Virus record (IMG/VR): IMGVR_UViG_3300045912_000943
Coordinates: 1-38,673 of that record
DNA from: a virus
DNA: 38,673 nt
Reading direction: 5' to 3' (one strand)
Both the position numbers and the translations under genes were made by a program. Shown here one piece after another: positions 1,470-35,803 of the stretch. Within the stretch, counting starts at the first letter, position 1. The number at the start of each line of letters is the position of its first letter. Under the pieces are notes generated by a model. It was not told the origin of the DNA. It searched no databases and saw only the letters and a program-made list of their open reading frames with translations.

Positions 1470-1604
1470 GGCGCCACCAGCCCTGCGCGCTCCGGTTGTC
1501 CACAACTTTCTTGTCCACACGCGAGTCTAGCCGTTGTGTTCTCTTCGGCGGTTCTGATACCGTATTTGGTAGAGGAAGAGCCCCAGAGGGCGGGAGCAGA
1601 CGGG
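1470..1604 (+). promoter_or_regulatory. gcrA upstream region with two DnaA-box-like repeats and a GAnTC site
   Basis: The 135-bp gap before gcrA holds TTGTCCACA twice (1496-1504 and 1511-1519), a 15-bp-spaced direct repeat one mismatch away from the DnaA box TTATCCACA. A GAGTC (GAnTC, the CcrM methylation target) follows at 1523-1527. In Caulobacter gcrA transcription depends on DnaA and GcrA acts at methylated GAnTC promoters, so this arrangement fits cell-cycle control. The sites are seen directly; their use is inference. Confidence 0.55.
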
Positions 1605-2081
1605 ATGGACTGGACCGAGGACGCGATCGCCACGCTGCGTCAGCTGTGGTCGGAGGGGCTCTCGACCGCCGAGATCGGCCGCCGGATGGGGATCTCGAAG
1701 AACGCGGTCGTCGGCAAGGCGCATCGGCTCAATCTCGCGGCCCGGCCCTCGCCGATCCGCCGCGTGCCCGGTGCCACGCCCTCGCCGCGGCCGGCACGCC
1801 GTGCGGCCCGGCCGGCGATGCCGCGGCCCTCGCCGATGATGGCCGGCACCCCGATGGCGGCGCGCCCGCCCGCCGAGCGTCCCGCGCCGGTCGTGCCGAT
1901 GCGCCCGGCGCCGCAGCCGCTCCGGCTCGGCAACAGCGCCTGCTGCTGGCCGCTGGGCGACCCCGGCACGCCGGGGTTCCGCTTCTGCGGCGCGCAGGCG
2001 CTGCTCGGCAAGCCGTACTGCGCCGAGCATGCCTCGGTCGCCTATGTGCGGGTGAAGGACCGGCGCGAGGACGCCGCCTAG
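1605..2081 (+). CDS. gcrA: GcrA family cell cycle regulator (host)
   Basis: This 158-residue protein begins MDWTEDAIATLRQLW and has the GcrA helix-turn-helix at residues 1-45 (TAEIGRRMGISKNAVVGKAHRL), a Pro/Arg/Ala-rich linker, and a C-terminal Cys cluster (C113, C114, C128, C139, H142) in CCWPLG...FCGAQALLGKPYCAEH. GcrA binds sigma-70 RNA polymerase and promoters with CcrM-methylated GAnTC sites, driving S-phase genes in alphaproteobacteria. The ATG at 1605 is preferred over an in-frame ATG at 1536 because it gives the canonical MxWT start. It lies only 371 bp upstream of the prophage junction. A second, phage-borne copy lies at 9477. Confidence 0.93.
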   Translation: MDWTEDAIATLRQLWSEGLSTAEIGRRMGISKNAVVGKAHRLNLAARPSPIRRVPGATPSPRPARRAARPAMPRPSPMMAGTPMAARPPAERPAPVVPMRPAPQPLRLGNSACCWPLGDPGTPGFRFCGAQALLGKPYCAEHASVAYVRVKDRREDAA

Positions 2082-2924: not shown

Positions 2925-3128
2925 TCAGTTGCGGGGCTCGGCGGGCGGCGCGGGGCAGAGTTCGGGCTCGCCGAGCGAGACCGTGACGGTGATGCGGAGG
3001 GTCACCGGCGTGGGCGTGGGCGGCGCGGGCGGCAGCAGCGCGTCGAGCAGCTCGCGCGGAATCGGCGGCCGGCGGGGCGGGCGGGCGACCATGCGGGCCA
3101 CCCTGCCGCGCGGGCACGCAACGATCAA
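2925..3128 (-). CDS. Small hypothetical protein co-transcribed with the repressor
   Basis: A 67-residue leftward frame starts at TTG (3128-3126), overlapping the repressor TGA as TTGA. This is the same coupling style (ATGA/GTGA) used through the rest of the phage. An AAGGAGAGG ribosome site (3145-3137 on the minus strand) stands 8 nt before the TTG, which supports this start over an in-frame ATG at 3092. Codon third positions are almost all G/C. The product is Pro/Arg-rich with a beta-like TLRITVTVSLGEPEL near the C-terminus and no recognisable domain. It is probably expressed with the repressor in the lysogen. Confidence 0.58.
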   Translation of the reverse strand: MIVACPRGRVARMVARPPRRPPIPRELLDALLPPAPPTPTPVTLRITVTVSLGEPELCPAPPAEPRN

Positions 3129-3601
3129 GGGTTGCGCCTCTCCTTATTCTCATCGTCCTGCGATTGCAGGATCGCGCGCGCGCCATCGTAGAGCGCGAGC
3201 GTCAGGGCGAGCAGTTTGCGCGCCTCCGGCCGCGCAACGCCGCGCTGGACGAAGGCGTTGAGCGCGGCCTCGTAGCTGGTGGCGAGGTCGTCGAGATCGA
3301 GCACGTCCTGGGCGCGCGGCGGCTCGGCGGGCGGCGCGGGCGAGTCGCCGGGGCGCATCGGCCCCGCGCCGGTGGCGAGCCACTCCAGGCAGACCCCGGC
3401 CGCGCGCGCCAGCGCCGCCGCGTTCGACAGCTTCATCTCGCCGCCCTTCAGATAGCCGTCGAGGGTGGTCTTGGGGATGCCCGTGCGCGTCGAGATCGCC
3501 GTTTTGCCGCCGGCGAGCCGCACGACCTCACGGACGCGCTCCGCACGGCCCTGCGTGCCGACTGACGATATTTCGTACTTCTCTTCAGTCAGATCAGACA
3601 T
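3125..3601 (-). CDS. Helix-turn-helix repressor (Mu c-like)
   Basis: This 158-residue leftward protein has an XRE-type helix-turn-helix at residues ~19-76 (RVREVVRLAGGKTAISTRTG, then IPKTTLDGYLKGG, and a SNAAALARAAGVCLEWLATG tail typical of phage repressors). A Pro-rich linker and a C-terminal helical part (residues ~98-150) probably mediate oligomerisation. It is the first leftward gene from the divergent control region facing ner, the standard place for the lysogeny repressor in Mu-like phages. It should silence the early operon and, by analogy, antagonise transposase at the left end. The ATG at 3601 is directly followed by MSDLTEEKYE. A LexA-like protease domain is not present. Confidence 0.85.
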   Translation of the reverse strand: MSDLTEEKYEISSVGTQGRAERVREVVRLAGGKTAISTRTGIPKTTLDGYLKGGEMKLSNAAALARAAGVCLEWLATGAGPMRPGDSPAPPAEPPRAQDVLDLDDLATSYEAALNAFVQRGVARPEARKLLALTLALYDGARAILQSQDDENKERRNP

Positions 3602-3712
3602 CTAGCCCCCACGACTCGTGCGCCTGCAGGCGGCGCACGGAAAACGGTCTTGCCGTGACACGGAAAATCGTGCTTTGGTTGTGATCACGACTCCACAACC
3701 GCGCAGGACGCC
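3602..3712. promoter_or_regulatory. Divergent repressor/ner control region
   Basis: The 111-bp gap between the repressor and ner starts contains a direct repeat CACGGAAAA (3636-3644 and 3659-3667, 23 bp or about two helical turns apart), CACGGAAAATCGTG (3659-3672) with inverted CACG/CGTG ends, and the palindrome GTGATCAC (3681-3688). These are good candidates for Ner and/or repressor operators over the divergent promoters. I cannot place -35/-10 boxes with confidence in this GC-rich DNA. Confidence 0.55.
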
Positions 3713-4012
3713 ATGCCCGCCCCCGCAGACTGGCACCCCGAGGACGTCAAGGCGGCGATCCGCAAGACCGGGATCAGCCTCGAAGCGCTCGGGCGCGCCG
3801 GGGGCTTCTCGGCCGGCGCGGTCGCGATCGCGCTGCGCCGCCCGATCCCCCGGGTGGAGGCGCTGATCGCGCGCCACCTCGGCCTGACGCCGCAGCAGAT
3901 CTGGCCGAGCCGCTACGACGACCAGGGCCAGCCACGGCGCGGGTTCTACGCCGGCACGAAGCGTAGCGCCGATCGTTGCGCGGGTCACCGTCAAGAATCG
4001 CAGGCGGCCTGA
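3713..4012 (+). CDS. ner: Ner-like DNA-binding transcriptional regulator
   Basis: The 99-residue product matches the Ner/Nlp winged-helix family: MPAPADWHPEDVKAAIRKTG, then ISLEALGRAGGFSAGAVAIALRRP, and EALIARHLGLTPQQIWPSRY in residues 1-66. The W-H-x-x-D-I/V-K start and the PQ-x-IWPSRY ending are characteristic. In Mu, Ner binds between the divergent promoters and lowers both repressor and early transcription, committing the phage to lytic growth. It is the first rightward gene after the divergent region, as in Mu. The last ~35 residues are polar and likely unstructured. It ends 3 bp before the ParB-like gene. Confidence 0.9.
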   Translation: MPAPADWHPEDVKAAIRKTGISLEALGRAGGFSAGAVAIALRRPIPRVEALIARHLGLTPQQIWPSRYDDQGQPRRGFYAGTKRSADRCAGHRQESQAA

Positions 4013-4015
4013 ACC

Positions 4016-4921
4016 ATGGACCCCACGCAGATGCATGTCGTTGCGCTGCCGCTGGACCGGATCACGATGGGCGAGCGGCTGCGGCCGGTCGATCCGGACT
4101 GGGTGGCGCTGCTGGCGGCCTCGATCGCCGAGCGCGGCCAGGACACGCCGATCCAGGTCTCGCCGGCGGACCGGGCGGGCCAGCATCGGCTGATCGCCGG
4201 GGCGCACCGGCTGGCGGCGCTGCGCCAGGCCGGGATCGCGACCGCGCGGGCGACGATCTTCCGCGGCTCGGCGGCCGAGGCGCGGCTCCTGGAGATCGAC
4301 GAGAACCTGATGCGGCGCGAGCTCTCCGCGCTCGACCGCGCGGTGTTCCTGGCGGAGCGCAAGCGGGTCTACGAGGAGCTGCACCCGGAGACGCGGCAGG
4401 GTGAGAACCGCCGTACGGACAAATTTGTCCGCACGGTGGGTGTAACGAGTTTCGCCAAGGAAACCGCCGAGAAACTGGGGCTCTCCGACCGCCACATCCG
4501 GCGCGCGATCAAGCGCTCCCGCATCGAGCCGGAGCTGCGCGCGCGCCTCGCGACCACGCGCTGGGCCGATCACGGCGCCACGCTCGACGCGCTCGCGCGC
4601 GCCGAGCCGGCGACCCGCCGTCGGCTGGTCGAGGCGCTGACCCGCGCCGAGGCCCCCGCCGCCAGCCTCGCCGCGGCGCGCGCCGAGCTCGGCGAGCGGC
4701 CCGCCCCGCGCACCCCGGAGCAGATCGAGCTGCACCGGCTGATGGAGGGCTGGCGCAAGGCCGGCCGGGCGGCGCGGCGGCAGTTCTTCGACTTCATCCT
4801 CGACTCCACCGGCGCGGAGATGACGGCCGCGCTGATGCACGCCGCGCTGACCCGGCGCGAGGCGCGCGAGGAGGACGGCCAGAGCCGGGTGGTCACCGCG
4901 CTGGCCCAGCGGCCGCGCTGA
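4016..4921 (+). CDS. ParB/Srx-fold domain protein with helix-turn-helix
   Basis: This 301-residue protein has a ParB N-terminal fold at residues ~7-110: ERLRPVDPDWVALLAASIAE, GQDTPIQV, HRLIAGAHRLAAL, and ENLMRRELSALDRAVF. The usual GERR of CTP-binding ParB is replaced by GAHR. A helix-turn-helix follows (SFAKETAEKLGLSDRHIRRAIKR, residues ~143-165) and then a helical C-terminus. ParB-like proteins of this type recur in early operons of Mu-like phages, where the role is unsettled (DNA binding, regulation or host takeover). It follows ner by 3 bp. The gene carries an internal 26-bp near-palindrome at 4411-4436. Confidence 0.85.
   Translation: MDPTQMHVVALPLDRITMGERLRPVDPDWVALLAASIAERGQDTPIQVSPADRAGQHRLIAGAHRLAALRQAGIATARATIFRGSAAEARLLEIDENLMRRELSALDRAVFLAERKRVYEELHPETRQGENRRTDKFVRTVGVTSFAKETAEKLGLSDRHIRRAIKRSRIEPELRARLATTRWADHGATLDALARAEPATRRRLVEALTRAEAPAASLAAARAELGERPAPRTPEQIELHRLMEGWRKAGRAARRQFFDFILDSTGAEMTAALMHAALTRREAREEDGQSRVVTALAQRPR
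4411..4436. repeat. 26-bp near-perfect palindrome inside the ParB-like gene
   Basis: CGGACAAATTTGTCCG (4416-4431) is a perfect 16-bp palindrome. Adding the outer CCGT (4411-4414) and ACGG (4433-4436) arms gives 12 of 13 matched pairs, with one mismatched pair at 4415/4432. Its AT-rich core stands out against very GC-rich surroundings. ParB partners often bind 14-16-bp palindromes near their own gene, so this is a candidate parS-like or autoregulatory site. It is also coding sequence (TDKFVRT), so coincidence is possible. Confidence 0.6.
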
Positions 4922-4934
4922 GGGAGGGACGGGG

Positions 4935-5057
4935 ATGCACGACGACTGGCCCAGCCTGTGGCTGCTCGCCTTGGCCTCGGTCGCCGGCGCGGCCGGGTTC
5001 TTCGGCCTGTTCTGGGCGGTCTGGGTGATCGGCCTGGCGCTGGGGCTGGTGCCATGA
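4935..5057 (+). CDS. Small single-pass membrane protein (40 aa)
   Basis: An ATG at 4935 follows a GGGAGGGACGGGG purine-rich ribosome site and opens a 40-residue frame, MHDDWPSLWLLALASVAGAA and onward. A hydrophobic helix covers residues ~8-39, so this is an inner-membrane peptide of one long or two short helices. It starts 13 bp after the ParB-like stop, and its TGA overlaps the next ATG as ATGA, the coupling style of this operon. It is too short for family recognition; the evidence is the hydrophobic profile, G/C third positions and tight spacing. Confidence 0.6.
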   Translation: MHDDWPSLWLLALASVAGAAGFFGLFWAVWVIGLALGLVP

Positions 5058-5146
5058 CGACGCTGGCCATCCTGCTCGCCGCCACGGGCGGGTTCTGGCT
5101 CGGCTTCGGCGCGGGGCTGCTCTGGGTCCGGAGGCCCTACGTCTGA
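5054..5146 (+). CDS. Small single-pass membrane protein (30 aa)
   Basis: A 30-residue frame beginning MTTLAILLAATGGFWLGFGA consists of one glycine-rich transmembrane helix (residues ~3-24) ending in a positively charged WVRRPYV tail, which suggests an N-out/C-in topology. It overlaps the preceding 40-residue gene by ATGA and the next gene by TGATG, so all three are likely translated together. It may pair with the upstream peptide. The function is unknown. Confidence 0.55.
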   Translation: MTTLAILLAATGGFWLGFGAGLLWVRRPYV

Positions 5147-5778
5147 TGCGCCCGCGCCACGTCCGCGCGCTGCTGCGCCGGCTCGACGCGCTGGCCGCGC
5201 GCGCCGCCCATCCGCTGTTCGTGCTGCACGGCCCGGGCGATCCGGGGGGTCCGCGGGAGACCCCGGCCCACCAAGGCGACCTGCCGGCGCCGCCGGTCAA
5301 TGCCCGCCCGGGGGCCGCGTCGGACGACGCGGCTGCGTACAGGGCCAAGGCCGCCGATCCCGCGCCCCCGCTATCCCTCCAAGAGGGAAAGCGGGGCGAG
5401 GACCCTCACCCTGACCCTCTCCCGCGCGCGGGAGAGGGGACGCCGCCGGCGCCGCCGCCACCCTCACCCCGGCCCTTTCCCGCGCCCGCCCGCCCGCCGG
5501 CGGTGCGGGTGCCCGAGCCCTCGGTGGCGGCGCGCGAGGACCGCGAGCGCGCGGCTGAGATGCTCTTCGCCCGGGCCGATTACGCGACCATCACCGCGTG
5601 GGGCCGCGCCAGCGGGGTGGACGTGTCCGGCCGGGGCCGCAGCGGCGTCGTGATCATGCGGGTCAACGCGAAGCGGCGGTCGTTCGGGCTGCCGGCGTTC
5701 CGGCTGGTCAACTCGCCGCGGCCGGCCGAGGCGGTCACGGCCGAGTTCCACGAGATGTCCCGGGTGCGCACCGCATGA
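5146..5778 (+). CDS. Hypothetical early protein carrying REP-like insertions
   Basis: The 210-residue product has three parts: a basic N-terminus (residues 1-30, MRPRHVRALLRRLDALAARA), a low-complexity Pro/Ala middle (~35-125), and a conserved-looking C-terminal part (~128-205, from SVAAREDRERAAEMLFARAD to FRLVNS). The middle is largely made of palindromic REP-like DNA (hairpins 5366-5396 and 5415-5438, plus a related half copy from 5461) that happens to stay in frame and yields PHPDPLPRAGEG. The functional core is probably the C-terminal part. No family was recognised. It overlaps its neighbours by TGATG and ATGA. Confidence 0.6.
   Translation: MRPRHVRALLRRLDALAARAAHPLFVLHGPGDPGGPRETPAHQGDLPAPPVNARPGAASDDAAAYRAKAADPAPPLSLQEGKRGEDPHPDPLPRAGEGTPPAPPPPSPRPFPAPARPPAVRVPEPSVAAREDRERAAEMLFARADYATITAWGRASGVDVSGRGRSGVVIMRVNAKRRSFGLPAFRLVNSPRPAEAVTAEFHEMSRVRTA
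5366..5438. repeat. REP-like palindromic element inside a coding gene
   Basis: Two hairpins lie in tandem: CCCCGCTATCCCTC with GAGGGAAAGCGGGG (5366-5396, one mismatch, 3-nt loop) and a perfect 24-bp palindrome with arms CCCTCTCCC and GGGAGAGGG (5415-5438). A related CCCTCACCCCGGCCCTTTCC half-copy starts at 5461. The same unit recurs at 9723-9759 in the GcrA-like gene. This layout is typical of dispersed extragenic palindromes of GC-rich proteobacteria. Confidence 0.7.
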
Positions 5779-6083
5779 CCGGCCAGCCCGACCTGTTCGG
5801 CCTGGACGCGGCGGTGCGGTCGCAGTGGCCGGCGACCTCGATCGCGGCGGCCGAGGCGCTGCAGCCCGACGCGCGCACGCTGCGCGAGGACGTGCTGGCC
5901 GCGATCCGCGCGGCCGGGCCGGCCGGGCTCACCGCCGACGAGGCGGCGGCGCGGCTGCGGCTCTCCCCCTTCACCGCCCGGCCGCGCTGCACCGAGCTGC
6001 GCGCGGCCGGGCTGGTGCGCGACAGCGGCCAGCGGCGCGCCAACGCCTCGGGCCGCGCGGCGATCGTCTGGGTGGCGGCGTGA
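5775..6083 (+). CDS. Winged-helix DNA-binding protein
   Basis: The 102-residue product has an N-terminal MTGQPDLFGLDAA segment and then a winged helix-turn-helix at residues ~35-85 (LREDVLAAIRAAGPAGLTAD, EAAARLRLSPFTARPRCTEL, RAAGLVRDSGQRR). The pattern resembles MarR/replication-accessory winged helices used in phage early operons. The ATG at 5775 overlaps the upstream stop as ATGA, and the GTG of the next gene overlaps its own stop. It probably binds DNA in the early operon; the target is unknown. Confidence 0.65.
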   Translation: MTGQPDLFGLDAAVRSQWPATSIAAAEALQPDARTLREDVLAAIRAAGPAGLTADEAAARLRLSPFTARPRCTELRAAGLVRDSGQRRANASGRAAIVWVAA

Positions 6084-6301
6084 GCGGCTGGTGCCTCTGC
6101 TGTTGGCTCGTGGTCGAGACCGCGCGGACGGTCACGCCCTGGCTCGCCCCGGAGGCGCGGCCGCGCGACGCCTATGGCCCGTTCGGCACGCGCGATCGCT
6201 GCGAGGCGGCGCTGGAGACCGCGCGCGCCGCGCCGGGCCAGGCCGACTGGCGGATCGAGGCGGCGCGCTGCGAGCGCCGCCAGGCCGAGGTGCTGCGCTG
6301 A
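6080..6301 (+). CDS. Small cysteine-containing hypothetical protein
   Basis: A GTG at 6080 overlaps the preceding TGA (GTGA) and opens a 73-residue frame. The N-terminus MSGWCLCCWLVVETARTV is short, hydrophobic and Cys-rich (C5, C7, C8). It is followed by a charged region with two further Cys (FGTRDRCEAALETARA and EAARCERRQ). It could be a small exported or membrane-anchored protein, but the leader is weak. The assignment rests on coupling (TGATG with the next gene) and coding-type base use. The family was not recognised. Confidence 0.5.
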   Translation: MSGWCLCCWLVVETARTVTPWLAPEARPRDAYGPFGTRDRCEAALETARAAPGQADWRIEAARCERRQAEVLR

Positions 6302-6750
6302 TGCCGCGCCGCCCGCCGCCGGTGCAGCCTGGCCTGTTCGACTGGGCGCCGCCGGCGGCCTACCCGCCCGACCAGGTGCGCGCGGCGACCCTGCATGGCC
6401 GGATCAGCCGGGCGGTGGCGCAGACCCTGCGCGACTGCGGCCTGCCGCGCGCCGAGGTCTGCGCGCGGATGGAGGCGTTCCTCGGCGCGCGCGTGAGCCA
6501 GGCGATGCTCGACGCCTACGCGTCGCAGGCGCGCGAGGAGCACGCGATCAGCGCGGTGCGGCTGGCGGCGCTCGCGCACGCGACCGGCGATGCCCGGCTG
6601 CTCGACGTGCTGGCCGAACCGCTCGGGCTGGCGGTGATCCCGCGCCGGCTGCTGCCGCTGATCGAGCTCGCCGAGGTGCACGAGCAGGCCGAGGCGCTGC
6701 GGCGCAAGGCCGATGCGCTGCGCCGCGCGGCGCGGGGCGGCGGCGGATGA
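6301..6750 (+). CDS. Hypothetical helical protein upstream of transposase
   Basis: The 149-residue product is predominantly helical: a QPGLFDW start, a region of residues ~30-100 resembling a small DNA-binding or adaptor fold (RISRAVAQTLRDCGLPRAEV, then FLGARVSQAMLDAYASQARE), and a C-terminal coiled coil (IELAEVHEQAEALRRKADAL). Proteins with this SQAMLDAYASQAREEH-type sequence commonly sit directly before the transposase in Mu-like phages of alphaproteobacteria (from memory, not searched). It overlaps transposase A by ATGA, so co-translation is likely. Function unknown. Confidence 0.65.
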   Translation: MPRRPPPVQPGLFDWAPPAAYPPDQVRAATLHGRISRAVAQTLRDCGLPRAEVCARMEAFLGARVSQAMLDAYASQAREEHAISAVRLAALAHATGDARLLDVLAEPLGLAVIPRRLLPLIELAEVHEQAEALRRKADALRRAARGGGG

Positions 6751-8465
6751 CCCGCGCCGCGCGCAAGGACGCGGTCAACGCGGCCCCGGACTGGGCCTGG
6801 TTCGAGCGGCTGCCGGACCAGGCCAAGGCCAAGGCGCGGGCGCGGCTCGCCGCGCTGGAGGCGGTCGCGGCGCTGGCCGGTCGCGGTGCGACCAAGGTCG
6901 CGGCGATCCAGACGGTGGCGCGGCAGCAGGGCGTCGGCGCGGCCTCGCTCTACCGCTGGGCCGAGCTGGTGAACGGTGTCGCCCGGGCGGACTGGCTGCC
7001 GGCGCTCGCCCCGCGCCACGCCGGCGGCCGCGCCGGCGCCGAGATGCCGGAGCAGGCGTGGTCGGCGCTGAAGGCGGATTATCTCCGCCCGTCCCGGCCG
7101 GCGTTCACGGACTGCTATCGCCGCCTCGCGCGCATCGCCGCGGCGGAGGGGTGGCAGATCCCCAGCGAGCGCACGCTGCTGCGGCGGATGCTGGCGATCC
7201 CCGAGCCGCAGCGCGTGCTGCTGCGCGACGGTGTCGAGGCGCTCAGGCGGATGTTCCCGGCGCAGCAGCGCGACCGCTCCGGCTTCCACGCGCTGGAGGC
7301 GGTGAACGCCGACGGCCACCGCTGGGACGTGTTCGTGCGCTGGCCCGACGGCACGGTGGCGCGGCCCGAGATGGTCGCGTTCCAGGATCTCTACTCGGGC
7401 AAGATCCTGTCCTGGCGGGTGGACCAGGCGCCGTCCTGGCACGCCGTGCGGCTCGCGTTCGGCGACCTCGTCGAGCGCTACGGCATCCCGTCGCTGTGCT
7501 GGCTGGACAACGGCCGCGAGTTCGCCGCCAAGCGGATCACCGGCGGCCAGCCGAACCGCTACCGCTTCAAGCTGCGCGAGGAGGAGCCGGAGGGGCTGCT
7601 CACCGCGCTCGGCGTCGCCGTGCGCTGGACCTCGCCGTATCACGGCCAGGCCAAGCCGATCGAGCGGGCGTTCCGCGACCTCGCCGGGGCGGTGGCGAAG
7701 CATCCCGCCTTCGAGGGCGCCTATACCGGCCCGAATCCCCAGGCGAAGCCGGCGAACTACGGCAGCCGGGCCGTGCCGCTCGAGACCTTCCTGCGCGTGG
7801 TCGGCGAGGGCATCGCTGAGCACAATGCGCGGCCCGGCCGGCGCAGCGCGACCTGCGCGGGCCGGTCGTTCGATGCGACCTTCGCCGCGTCCTACGCCGA
7901 GGCGCCGATCCGCCGCGCCACCGCCGAGCAGCGCCGGCTCTGGCTGCTGGCCGCCGACCTGGTGCGGGTCAGCCGGCAGGACGGCACGGTCCGGCTCTAC
8001 GGCAACCGCTACTGGTCGGAGGCGCTGCTCGCGCACCGCGGCGCGGCCGTGACGGTCCGCTTCGACCCCGAGGCGCTGGCCGAGCCGGTGCATGTCTATG
8101 CCGCCGACGGCCGCTATCTCGGGTCGGCGGAGTGCCTGGAGGCGGCCGGGTTCAGCGATGTGGCGGCGGCGCAGGACCAGGCGCGGCGGTGGAAGCAGTT
8201 CCTGCGCGCGACCCGCACGGCGGCCGAGCTCCAGGACCGGATGGACCTCGCCCAGTTGGCCCGCCGCCTGCCCGCCGCCGAGGCGGCCGAGCCGCCGGAG
8301 GCTCGGGTGGTGCGCCCGCTGTTCCGCGGCGCGGCGGCGCTGAAGCCGGAGGCCGAGGCGGCCGAGGACGCCGAGGAGCGGGTGCTGGCGGCGCTGCGCA
8401 CCGGCGTGGCGGCGCGCCGCGCGTTCCGGGTGGTCGAGGAGGGCTTCGTCGGCGAGGCCGACTGA
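6747..8465 (+). CDS. A: Mu-type DDE transposase A
   Basis: The 572-residue product has an N-terminal helix-turn-helix region (residues ~35-150), an RNase H-like catalytic core with the DDE triad D189 (AVNADGH), D254 (CWLDNGREF) and E306 (PYHGQAKPIERAF), and a Mu-type C-terminal beta barrel (~400-470). It catalyses strand cleavage and transfer at the prophage ends during integration and replicative transposition, binding the L1-L3 repeats at 2462-2624. Mu A is 663 residues; this one lacks part of the N-terminal enhancer-binding region. ATG 6747 overlaps the upstream stop; longer frames only read through upstream genes. The C-terminal tail (~500-572) is acidic and probably contacts ATPase B. 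Confidence 0.95.
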   Translation: MTRAARKDAVNAAPDWAWFERLPDQAKAKARARLAALEAVAALAGRGATKVAAIQTVARQQGVGAASLYRWAELVNGVARADWLPALAPRHAGGRAGAEMPEQAWSALKADYLRPSRPAFTDCYRRLARIAAAEGWQIPSERTLLRRMLAIPEPQRVLLRDGVEALRRMFPAQQRDRSGFHALEAVNADGHRWDVFVRWPDGTVARPEMVAFQDLYSGKILSWRVDQAPSWHAVRLAFGDLVERYGIPSLCWLDNGREFAAKRITGGQPNRYRFKLREEEPEGLLTALGVAVRWTSPYHGQAKPIERAFRDLAGAVAKHPAFEGAYTGPNPQAKPANYGSRAVPLETFLRVVGEGIAEHNARPGRRSATCAGRSFDATFAASYAEAPIRRATAEQRRLWLLAADLVRVSRQDGTVRLYGNRYWSEALLAHRGAAVTVRFDPEALAEPVHVYAADGRYLGSAECLEAAGFSDVAAAQDQARRWKQFLRATRTAAELQDRMDLAQLARRLPAAEAAEPPEARVVRPLFRGAAALKPEAEAAEDAEERVLAALRTGVAARRAFRVVEEGFVGEAD

Positions 8466-8499: not shown

Positions 8500-9477
8500 A
8501 TGGGACAGAGTGCGGAGCGGCGCTGGAGCGCCGAGGAGCAGGAGGCGATCCGGGTCAGGGTGCAGGAGACCATCCGCACCGAGGACCTGACCCAGAAGGC
8601 GGTCGCGGTCGAGAGCGGGATCCCGTACGGCAGCCTGACGCCGTTCCTGGGCGGCACGTATGCCGGCGACGGCAGCCGGATGTGCGAGAAGCTGGAGCGC
8701 TGGCTCGCCGCGCGCGAGCGCCGGGCGGCCGCGCAGGTGCCGCTGCCGCAGCAGATCTTCGTCGCCACGCCGACCGCGCAGGCGATCCACGACGTGCTGG
8801 CGCACGCGCAGGACCTGCCGGACATGGTGACCATCACCGGCGCGCCGGGCACCGGCAAGACCTCGGCGGTGTGCGCCTACGTGCGCGCCAACCCGAATGT
8901 CCACAAGCTCGTCGCCGAGCCGGCGCTCAACACGGTCCGCGCGCTGCTCCAGGCCCTGGCGGCGCTGCTCGGGGTCTATGACCTCGGCTCGCAGCACCGG
9001 ATCAGCCGCCTGGTCGGACGCCGCCTGACGGGCACGCGCGGGCTCATCATCGTCGACGAGGCGCAGCACCTCTCGTCGGCGATGCTCGACCAGCTGCGCG
9101 CGTTCCACGACCAGTGCCCGGTCGGCATCGCGCTGGTCGGCAACGAGGCGGTGATCGGCCGGCTGGAGGGCGGGCGCCGCTCGGCCGAGTACGCGCAGCT
9201 CTACTCGCGGGTCGGCATGCGGCTCCGGGTCGGGCGGAGCGCGCGCGCCGTGGCGGCCGATGTCGAGCCGCTGCTGACGGCCTGGGACGTGCCGGAGGGC
9301 GAGGTGCGCGCACGGCTGCGCGCGGTGGCGCGCCAGCCCGGGGCGCTGCGCGCGATGCGCAAGACCTGGGTGATCGCGCAGCTCCTCGCGCGCGCCGAGG
9401 AGCGCGCGGTGGCGGCGGCGGATGTCTCGCTGGCGTGGGAGCGGCTCTCCTCGGCGCCGCTCGGGGAGGCGGCGTGA
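8500..9477 (+). CDS. B: AAA+ transposition ATPase B (MuB-like)
   Basis: The 325-residue product has an N-terminal helix-turn-helix (residues ~20-70, DLTQKAVAVESGIPYGSLTP) and an AAA+ domain with Walker A GAPGTGKT (114-121), Walker B LIIVDEAQ (182-189) and a sensor-like ALVGNEA segment (~208-216). MuB binds DNA nonspecifically, delivers target DNA to the transposase and gives target immunity. A strong AAGGAGGAG ribosome site lies 8 nt before ATG 8500. Mu B has 312 residues, so the length is normal. It directly follows A and overlaps the GcrA-like gene by TGATG. Confidence 0.94.
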   Translation: MGQSAERRWSAEEQEAIRVRVQETIRTEDLTQKAVAVESGIPYGSLTPFLGGTYAGDGSRMCEKLERWLAARERRAAAQVPLPQQIFVATPTAQAIHDVLAHAQDLPDMVTITGAPGTGKTSAVCAYVRANPNVHKLVAEPALNTVRALLQALAALLGVYDLGSQHRISRLVGRRLTGTRGLIIVDEAQHLSSAMLDQLRAFHDQCPVGIALVGNEAVIGRLEGGRRSAEYAQLYSRVGMRLRVGRSARAVAADVEPLLTAWDVPEGEVRARLRAVARQPGALRAMRKTWVIAQLLARAEERAVAAADVSLAWERLSSAPLGEAA

Positions 9478-9956
9478 TGCTGGCGTCTCCCTGGCCCGAC
9501 CGCGACGGCGAGCTGCGCGCGCGCTGGGCGGCGGGCGAGACGACTCTCGCGATCGCCGAGGCGATGGGGCTGACCAAGAACCAGGTGATCGGCCGCGCGC
9601 ACCGGCTCGGCCTGCCGGCGCGCCCGCACCCGATCCGCCGCGCCGAGGGCGGCGCGCCGCGGACGCCCCGCCCGGCGCCCAAGGCCGCGCGGGCCGCCGT
9701 GGCGCGGGCGGGGGCCTCCGCGCCCTCACCCCGGCCCTCTCCCGCGCCGCGGGAGAGGGAGCGCGCGCCGGCCGTCCCCGCGGTACTGGCGCGGACGGCA
9801 CGGTGCTGCTGGCCGGTGTGGCCCAACGGCGCCGGCCGCGAACACCCGGAGTACGGCCGCTATTGCGGCGCGCCGGCGCTGCTCGGGTCGAGCTACTGCC
9901 CGGCGCACCACGCGCGCGCTGGCCGGGTGCGCACGGAAACGGAGGACGCGGCATGA
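9477..9956 (+). CDS. Phage-encoded GcrA-like protein
   Basis: This 159-residue protein shares the architecture of the host GcrA at 1605: an N-terminal helix-turn-helix (residues 5-47, ETTLAIAEAMGLTKNQVIGRAHRL), a shared HPIRR/SPIRR junction, a Pro/Ala/Arg linker, and a C-terminal cluster CCWPVW (C110, C111), YCGAPALLGSSYCPAHH (C130, C141, H144). The WTxE start of GcrA is replaced by WPDRD. GcrA homologues recruit sigma-70 polymerase at CcrM-methylated promoters, so a phage copy could redirect host cell-cycle transcription or drive phage promoters. It overlaps ATPase B and the DnaA-like gene, placing it in the replication operon. Its linker carries a REP-like palindrome (9735-9759). Confidence 0.85.
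   Translation: MLASPWPDRDGELRARWAAGETTLAIAEAMGLTKNQVIGRAHRLGLPARPHPIRRAEGGAPRTPRPAPKAARAAVARAGASAPSPRPSPAPRERERAPAVPAVLARTARCCWPVWPNGAGREHPEYGRYCGAPALLGSSYCPAHHARAGRVRTETEDAA
9723..9759. repeat. REP-like palindrome in the GcrA-like gene
   Basis: Arms CCCTCTCCC (9735-9743) and GGGAGAGGG (9751-9759) flank a 7-nt loop, preceded by CCCTCACCCCGG from 9723. The unit is nearly identical to the copies at 5403-5438 and 5461-5486. It lies within the unstructured linker, where added Pro/Arg/Ser residues should be tolerated. Confidence 0.68.
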
Positions 9957-10384
9957 GCCGGGCGATCGTCGAGCAGTTCGACGTGGTGCTGGAGCAGCTC
10001 GCGAGGCTGCGCCGCGAGGTCGAGGCGCTGCGCGCGGTGATCGACGCGACCGCGGTCGGCCGCGTGGAAGGGCCGCTCGCGGCGGCGATCGCGGTGGTGT
10101 GCGAGCGGATGGTGGTGCCGCGGGCGCGGCTGGTGTCGCGGCTGCGCGACAGCCGGACGGCGTGGGCGCGGATGATGGCGTGCTGGCTGGCGCACCACGC
10201 CGGCGCGATGCCAGTGACCGCGATCGCGGCGGCGCTCGACCGCGACCACTCGACGATCGGCTACGGGCTCCAGCGCGTCGATCTGCGCCGGGCGTGCGAC
10301 CCCGAGTTCGCCGGTCGGCTGGCGGCGATGGCCGACCAGGTGCGCGCGCTGCTGCTCCCCACAATCGAGCGGAGGGCGGCATGA
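9953..10384 (+). CDS. Protein with DnaA domain IV-like DNA-binding domain
   Basis: The 143-residue product has an N-terminal coiled coil (residues ~5-35) and a C-terminal part (residues ~42-135) that matches the DnaA DNA-binding domain: ARMMACWLAHHAGAMPVTAI, then AAALDRDHSTIGYGLQRVD with the DnaA-signature R97-D98-H99-S100-T101 block. It lacks the AAA+ ATPase and the DnaB-loading parts, so it cannot act as an initiator alone. It could bind DnaA boxes as a competitor or direct phage replication or transcription. It is ATGA-coupled to the GcrA-like gene and followed by gam. The domain call is from visible motifs; the role is inference. Confidence 0.8.
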   Translation: MSRAIVEQFDVVLEQLARLRREVEALRAVIDATAVGRVEGPLAAAIAVVCERMVVPRARLVSRLRDSRTAWARMMACWLAHHAGAMPVTAIAAALDRDHSTIGYGLQRVDLRRACDPEFAGRLAAMADQVRALLLPTIERRAA

Positions 10385-10411: not shown

Positions 10412-10930
10412 ATGGCTAGAGTGAAGCGTGCGGCCGCGGCGGTGACGGTGCCGCAGAGCCAGGCCGAGGCGGCCGAGGCGCTGGCCGCGATCGGCGCGGC
10501 GCAGCGGTCGCTGGAGGTGATCCAGGCCGCGCTCGACGAGCAGGTGGCGGCGCTGAAGGCGGCGGCCGAGGCCGAGGCGGCGCCGCACCGCGCCGTGGTC
10601 GAGCAGCGCACGCGCGGGCTGGAGGTGTGGGCGGCGGCGAATCGCGGCCTCGCCAAGGGCAAGACGATCACGCTGCCGACCGGGACGCTGTCCTGGCGGG
10701 TGCGCCCGCCCGCGGTGCGGCTGAGCGATGTCAAGGCGGTGCTGGCGGAGCTCGCGGTGCGCGGGCTCACGGCGTTCATCCGCACCAAGCACGAGGTCGA
10801 CAAGGAGGCGATGCTGGCCGCGCCGGACGTGGCCGCGTCGATCCCGGGCGTGACGATCGTCACGCAGGTCGAGGACTTCGTGGTCGAGCCGACCGCGCTG
10901 ACGCTGGCCGAGGCGGGAGGGCCGGCATGA
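10412..10930 (+). CDS. gam: Host-nuclease inhibitor Gam-like protein
   Basis: This 172-residue protein matches Mu Gam: a long N-terminal helical hairpin (residues ~12-80), then KGKTITLPTGTLSWRVRPPA and a C-terminal part (IRTKHEVDKEAMLAAP, IPGVTI). Mu Gam is a Ku-like dimer that coats DNA ends and blocks exonucleases such as RecBCD, protecting phage ends. Mu Gam has 174 residues, so this one is full length. A GAGAAGGAGAAG ribosome site precedes ATG 10412. The gene follows the DnaA-like gene after 27 bp and overlaps the next gene by ATGA. Confidence 0.93.
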   Translation: MARVKRAAAAVTVPQSQAEAAEALAAIGAAQRSLEVIQAALDEQVAALKAAAEAEAAPHRAVVEQRTRGLEVWAAANRGLAKGKTITLPTGTLSWRVRPPAVRLSDVKAVLAELAVRGLTAFIRTKHEVDKEAMLAAPDVAASIPGVTIVTQVEDFVVEPTALTLAEAGGPA

Positions 10931-34769: not shown

Positions 34770-35803
34770 GCCTGCGCCACCATCCGCCCGCCGGGTCCGG
34801 CACACGAATCACGAGCCAGTGGAACGAGCCCAGCGCGCACGTCGTCGACGGTCCGGGCATCCTGCTGCGCACCGCGGCGGGCACAGGACCGCTCGAGCTC
34901 GTCGGCCTCTCCTCCGACTTCGCGGTCGAAGCGAACGAACTGCGGGTCGTGGCTGCGACGGGGCCGCAGGGTCCGCAAGGCGAGCCGGGGCCGCAGGGTC
35001 CGCAAGGCGAGCCGGGGCCGCAGGGTCCGCAAGGCGAGCCGGGGCCGCAGGGTCCGCAAGGCGAGCCGGGGCCGCAGGGTCCGCAAGGCGAGCCGGGCGG
35101 CGGCACCGAGGGCTACGCCTCGCAGCGCACGATCACGGCCAGCGGCACCATCACCGACGCTGACCGCAACGGCGTGGTCTACATCAACGGCTCCGGGATC
35201 ACCGCCACCTTCGTCCGCTCTGGGTTCTCGGCGCGTGACCGGGTGCTGCTGATCAACATCGGGACGGCGGCGGCGACGATCAGCGCCGGAACCGACGGGT
35301 TCAACTCGGCTGGCAACGACAGCTTCACCCTCTTCCCCGGCGAGGAGCGGGAGGTCGTCTACGAGGGCTCGGCCGACCCGTACTGGCGCGTCGCCGTGCC
35401 GGGCACGATCGAGCTCGCCGCCAATCAGGTTGCGACGCTCAACAACGCCGGCACCGGGTTCGAGGCGCGCACGGAGAAGGTGGTCGGCTCCGTCTTCCTG
35501 CCGATCACCGGCAACGTCTCGGGCGGCGCGGCGGAAGGCCAGATCGGCCTGTGGGGCAACCTGCCCTGCACGCTCACCGCGGTGCGCGCACGCACGCTCG
35601 GCGGGACGTGCTCGATCCAGATCCGCAAGAACGGCTCGGCGATCAACGGCTTTTCGAGCGCGGTCGCGCAGACGACATCAGTCACCGGCACGGCGAGCAC
35701 CGAAGCGTTCGCTCAGGACAATCTGCTCGATGTCGTGGTGACGAGCGCATCCAGCCTGACCGGCCTGTTCATCACCTTCCTCGGTGTAAGGACGGCCGAC
35801 TGA
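34766..35803 (+). CDS. Collagen-like tail fibre protein
   Basis: The 345-residue product has an N-terminal part (residues 1-65), a collagen-like block of five identical GPQGPQGEP units (66-110), and a C-terminal beta part (~115-345). The latter starts [20 protein letters not shown] and ends in a jelly-roll-like region ([20 protein letters not shown] onward). Collagen repeats trimerise and stiffen phage fibres, with the C-terminal domain binding the receptor. ATG 34766 overlaps the preceding stop (ATGA). From about 35100 onwards base composition drifts to lower GC. Confidence 0.82.
34961..35095 (+). repeat. Five perfect 27-bp tandem repeats encoding collagen units
   Basis: The 27-bp unit, starting GGGCCGCAGGGTCCGCAA, is repeated five times with no substitutions seen, each coding GPQGPQGEP. 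Perfect conservation at synonymous positions points to recent expansion by slippage or recombination, so copy number probably varies between relatives. Confidence 0.92.

Follow-up and report, generated by a model that had tools for sequence, protein, structure and literature searches.

A Mu-like alphaproteobacterial prophage encodes, side by side between its transposition ATPase and its Gam-like protein, a GcrA-family protein (G) and a stand-alone DnaA domain IV (D), and adjacency of such genes is above chance across many phages, in either order. This recurrence suggests that viruses repeatedly use GcrA and the DnaA head to take over the host DNA-replication clock.

The window, by which we mean the whole 38,673-nt stretch analyzed (IMG/VR record IMGVR_UViG_3300045912_000943), consists of the Mu-like prophage with host flank. 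Used here for comparison, a host chromosomal gcrA lies in the flank (1605..2081, + strand; Pfam GcrA 128 bits); just 3´ of it, an EamA-like transporter reading frame (2200-2454) ends abruptly near 2454, probably the left end of the prophage. The early operon reads repressor (c; 3125-3601, – strand), Ner-like gene (3713-4012, + strand), ParB-like gene, small genes, MuA-like transposase (6747..8465, + strand; Pfam DDE_2 195.6 bits), MuB-like transposition ATPase (8500..9477, + strand; AAA_22 67.6 bits, Phage-MuB_C 43.0 bits), G (9477..9956, + strand; 159 aa), D (9953..10384, + strand; 143 aa), the Mu Gam-like protein that forms the far border of the G/D slot (10412..10930, + strand; Phage_Mu_Gam 110 bits) and, further on, a Mor-like regulator. 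As read from the sequence, the MuB stop codon (9475-9477) overlaps the G start at 9477 in a TGATG within the junction GTGATG, and the D start at 9953 overlaps the G stop at 9956 in an ATGA; MuB, G and D thus are probably translationally coupled. Scans with the single proteins P0001, P0003 and P0004 as queries detected no close copy of the window phage.

The earlier note had recognized a GcrA-like protein directly after B and an ATGA-coupled, DnaA domain IV-like protein without an ATPase, and proposed profile searches as the check; both proteins scored above the cut-offs of the GcrA and Bac_DnaA_C families. G matched Pfam GcrA (PF07750) with 62.6 bits over residues 6-153 (E 7e-17, cut-off 26.9) and the Caulobacter crescentus GcrA of 7ye1 at E 4e-10 (phmmer). 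With the NCBIfam GcrA equivalog model (cut-off 280), G reached 46.5 bits and the host GcrA 115.9, both under the cut-off. The N-terminal helix-turn-helix of G (residues 6-46; 9492..9614, + strand) corresponds to the GcrA DNA-binding domain 5yiu (phmmer E 0.002) and is modeled as a three-helix fold with an AlphaFold pLDDT of about 95. In the C-terminal region, the counterpart of the sigma-interacting domain (9804..9908, + strand), the Cys/His cluster is complete: C110, C130, C141 and H144 are invariant among 24 phage and host GcrA proteins. G therefore resembles GcrA of C. crescentus and other alphaproteobacteria in its N-terminal helix-turn-helix, proline-rich linker, C-terminal cluster and full-length profile match, but differs in being phage-encoded, in an early phage operon, with overlaps to MuB and D. 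Since G has diverged from the host GcrA (42% identity), sigma70 binding by G would not be assured. In a GcrA protein tree, phage copies are scattered among host GcrA proteins and the split follows host group, which fits repeated capture of GcrA by phages; window G sits on a long branch, and its exact position is unsure.

D matched Bac_DnaA_C (PF08299) with 45.2 bits over residues 46-109 (10088..10279, + strand; cut-off 31.5), and Pfam found no ATPase domain. Against the DnaA initiator model TIGR00362 it scored 36.7 of 343.9 bits; only domain IV is present, and the AAA+ domain and the rest of the full length are absent. The AlphaFold model of D (pLDDT 93) matches domain IV of DnaA bound to a DnaA box (3pvp, TMt 0.87; 1j1v, TMt 0.88, rmsd 1.3). 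Residues R65, R73, H99, S100 and T101 occupy the positions of R399, R407, H434, T435 and T436 (E. coli numbering), which, on the residue roles in 1J1V, we take to be the DnaA-box contacts; M74 stands where DnaA usually has Q408. We aligned window D with 51 domains from 49 loci selected by MuA, leaving out four near-duplicates. All 52 members matched Bac_DnaA_C at E below 0.001 (Pfam), and the contact residues were found in 39 (R65), 51 (R73), 40 (H99), 49 (S or T at S100) and 44 (T101) of them. D thus shares with DnaA domain IV the fold, the helix-turn-helix with RDHST and the basic contact residues, but lacks domains I-III; in their place is a long N-terminal helix (residues 2-35 by AlphaFold/DSSP; 9956..10057, + strand), which is likely a coiled coil.

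To survey Mu-like relatives, we collected 160 loci from genomes and viral contigs by the presence of a MuA relative, independently of G or D, and searched them with profile models. D was present in about 53 of the 160, often between MuB and gam, and a full GcrA was rare (8/160). All seven of the nearest relatives (L015, L016, L048, L095-L098) carry D between B and gam, and G was found by profile search in none of the seven. Given this rarity and absence, G in the window lineage looks like a later insertion between B and D. Elsewhere among these loci, G and D overlap by ATGA (L143), GcrA occupies the slot behind MuB without D (L017, L101), or GcrA lies at other places in the early region, several times directly 5´ of mor (L044, L087, L131, L172, L174). 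Several candidates were set aside. Rhizobial genes upstream of parB-MuA, at first counted as D by an iterated model, were dropped, as no Pfam DnaA_C was detected in L012. Two genes behind MuB in the Rhodovulum, Thiobacimonas, Pelagibaca and RcapMu phages, considered as homologs of G and D, contain winged and other helix-turn-helix domains by Pfam, neither GcrA nor DnaA; Rhodobacteral Mu-like phages (L009, L010, L011, L014) have a different pair of HTH-like regulators behind MuB, of about 190 aa and about 120 aa. One locus (L004, about 4338-5369) has a single protein between MuB and gam with a weak DnaA_C-like helix-turn-helix, GcrA-type helix-turn-helices and the GcrA Cys/His cluster; as a DnaA_C-GcrA fusion it is only suggestive, since the match to GcrA, at 40.9 bits, stands up but that to DnaA_C reaches just 17.1 bits, under the cut-off.

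The proposal in the earlier note that the two genes form a module thus did not hold as conserved adjacency in the nearest Mu-like relatives, which have D and no G. It survives through the many other phages in which the pair recurs far above random placement. We scanned viral contigs with phage GcrA alignments as query and obtained 159 loci, 157 of them with a GcrA match; 9 of 23 D domains were at most 400 bp from G, compared to 1.77 expected by random placement in the same loci. A second scan of viral contigs was seeded with D: among its 80 best loci, 21 had a GcrA-like gene nearby, within 400 bp in 12 of the 21 (1.91 expected by random placement). Random placement is a simple null, as both genes may favor a common early region; 7 of the 21 neighbors, however, lie within 40 bp of D, beyond what a shared early region alone would give. 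Pfam GcrA scored over the cut-off in 9 of 10 GcrA partners tested from the D-seeded scan, and both genes of the pair were Pfam-confirmed in L263, L269, L367 and L337; in four loci (L388, L430, L444, L446) the GcrA-like partner has only one of the two GcrA domains. Clustered at 50% identity in both proteins, the pairs within 530 bp, with L143 and the window added, fall into 22 groups and occur in either gene order; the count of separate origins is uncertain from this figure because looser identity merges most clusters and one contig (L269/L370) is shared by the two scans. The pairs are mostly in phages that are not Mu-like and are a minority arrangement, at 9 of 157 GcrA-seeded viral loci (about 6%) and 15% of the best D-seeded loci; none was found at 18 accessory gcrA loci from 121 sampled genomes. 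At positions 4050-7074 of one contig (L371, IMGVR_UViG_2935750917_000001), a DnaA with ATPase and domain IV, scoring over the DnaA equivalog cut-off, is followed in a row by GcrA and a DNA adenine methylase.

We searched for possible targets of D by motif scans. Two tandem DnaA boxes, TTGTCCACA at 1496 and 1511 (1496..1519, + strand), lie 94-109 bp upstream of the host gcrA and are followed by a GAGTC at 1523, and of 11 chromosomal gcrA copies inspected in Rhodospirillales, 10 have a DnaA box 93-112 bp upstream. In Caulobacter, gcrA is activated by DnaA (PMC3193534). Within the window phage there is no TTNTNCACA, an absence uninformative alone, as 0.18 occurrences are expected by chance at 75% GC; the D-gene flanks of other phages showed neither an excess of DnaA boxes (O/E 1.08) nor clusters. 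Taken together, the absence from the phage and the lack of enrichment near D imply that canonical targets of D would be in the host.

We infer that D most likely acts on host DnaA boxes and G serves GANTC promoters. On the reading that we favor, with a probability of roughly 0.4, G and D are trans-acting takeover regulators that give the phage control over replication-phase gene expression. Both would be early products of the operon that encodes the transposition proteins. D, as the DNA-reading domain of DnaA without the motor, would occupy DnaA boxes on the host chromosome, at the origin and at DnaA-dependent promoters such as that of host gcrA, so that host initiation and the step from DnaA to gcrA would be blocked or uncoupled. 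G, as a phage-owned GcrA, would bind sigma70 and open promoters with methylated GANTC, among them host GcrA targets that aid replication as well as those in the control region of the phage itself. If D on the gcrA boxes shut off host gcrA, a GcrA supplied by the phage would become necessary, which may offer a reason for the pairing. The binding events and host effects in this scheme are what we infer for G and D, and the activities raised in the earlier note, re-targeting of polymerase, competition for DnaA boxes and timing of transposition to the cell cycle, likewise are predictions. A more far-reaching version is rather doubtful: alphaproteobacterial phages may have repeatedly assembled a two-gene, and with the adenine methylase sometimes three-gene, copy of the host DnaA-GcrA(-CcrM) replication circuit, whose DnaA head, devoid of an ATPase, would silence both host gcrA and initiation in the host and whose GcrA would sustain replication-phase transcription for the phage.

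G and D might instead be ordinary early regulators whose main target is phage DNA, with G activating or timing early or repressor promoters through methylated GANTC and D reading a diverged phage site. The distribution of GANTC agrees with such a role. The 111-bp divergent control region between the repressor and the Ner-like gene (3602..3712) has GANTC at 3613 and 3689 (P about 0.002), the former reading CGAGTCG on the – strand and fitting YGAKTCG. Across alphaproteobacterial Mu-like phages (77 distinct loci), the early operon is depleted of GANTC, with 0.59/kb, and the control region, here the 800 bp upstream of parB, is not, with 1.62/kb (ratio 2.77); the corresponding ratios for seven composition-matched control motifs were 0.98-1.58. 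This retention makes GcrA-type control of the phage switch plausible, by host or phage GcrA. The pattern, however, also holds in Mu-like relatives without G, so that these sites may be read by host GcrA or CcrM, and a search for a conserved candidate D site in the phage found none. We therefore regard action mainly on phage DNA as a somewhat unlikely account. Higher GANTC retention in GcrA-bearing phages was set aside because host lineage and flanking DNA confound that comparison.

Less likely again is independent gain of G and D, without a joint function, at a variable accessory site located between MuB and Gam. The unrelated winged and small helix-turn-helix pair in the slot of Rhodobacteral Mu-like phages, the presence of G alone in L017 and L101 and of D alone in most others, and the several captures of GcrA would fit independent gain, but G and D are immediate neighbors far above random placement in many phages and in both orders. 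We consider it improbable that D is a phage replication factor, a subunit that would bind DnaA-box-like sites and bring the host replisome to the phage genome. D does adjoin DUF1376 or replisome-organizer genes in RHph_N28_2 and ctOK67, and a DUF1376 relative is within 5 kb in 11 of the 80 best D-seeded loci; no such relative was found in the Mu-like loci, however, and a DnaA-box cluster that could be a phage origin, sought near D in D-bearing loci, was not found. Transposition, moreover, is the mode of replication of Mu-type phages, which do not require an origin.

In phage Mu itself, Kil is encoded between B and gam and blocks cell division; Kil resembles G and D in its slot and in acting on the host cell cycle, though no sequence relationship is known. 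To our knowledge, phage-encoded GcrA has been on record since 2012, without a tested mechanism. The earlier note knew of no described precedent, but for GcrA there is one: phiCbK-like phages encode it, for the phiCbK homolog an effect on the replicative state of the host has been proposed (PMC3556154), and GcrA is listed in Sinorhizobium meliloti prophages (PMC12429752). Like G, phiCbK gp222 and its relatives are phage-encoded GcrA family proteins, but phiCbK is large and lytic and its gcrA is among small genes, with no adjoining DnaA domain annotated. Existing annotations of Rhizobium phages likewise include genes for DnaA-like-domain proteins, next to replication genes. These PRK06030/DnaA-like-domain proteins of alphaproteobacteria and Rhizobium phages such as RHph_N28_2 are small, like D, with only a DnaA-type C-terminal domain, but D is far under the PRK06030 cut-off, and the RHph_N28_2 gene is among replication genes and not with GcrA. 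Phage-borne cell-cycle regulators thus are already known, and the case here is a recurrent adjacent pair; our literature search found no paper reporting phage GcrA and DnaA domain IV together.

A GcrA beside a DnaA DNA-binding domain raises the testable idea that phages may split the host initiator from the downstream S-phase program. If so, D would represent a natural means of inhibiting replication initiation in bacteria, and such phages would be tools for asking which components of the DnaA-GcrA-CcrM circuit are important for replication; the survey supplies many G-D pairs for experiments.

Two repeat features of the window also were seen. One palindromic element (CCCTCTCCCGCG..CGGGAGAGGG) occurs twice, in frame within two phage genes, at 5415-5438 and at 9735-9759, the latter copy inside the linker of G. 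A tail-region protein has a collagen-like Gly-Pro-Gln stretch made from 27-nt tandem repeats (34932-35097).
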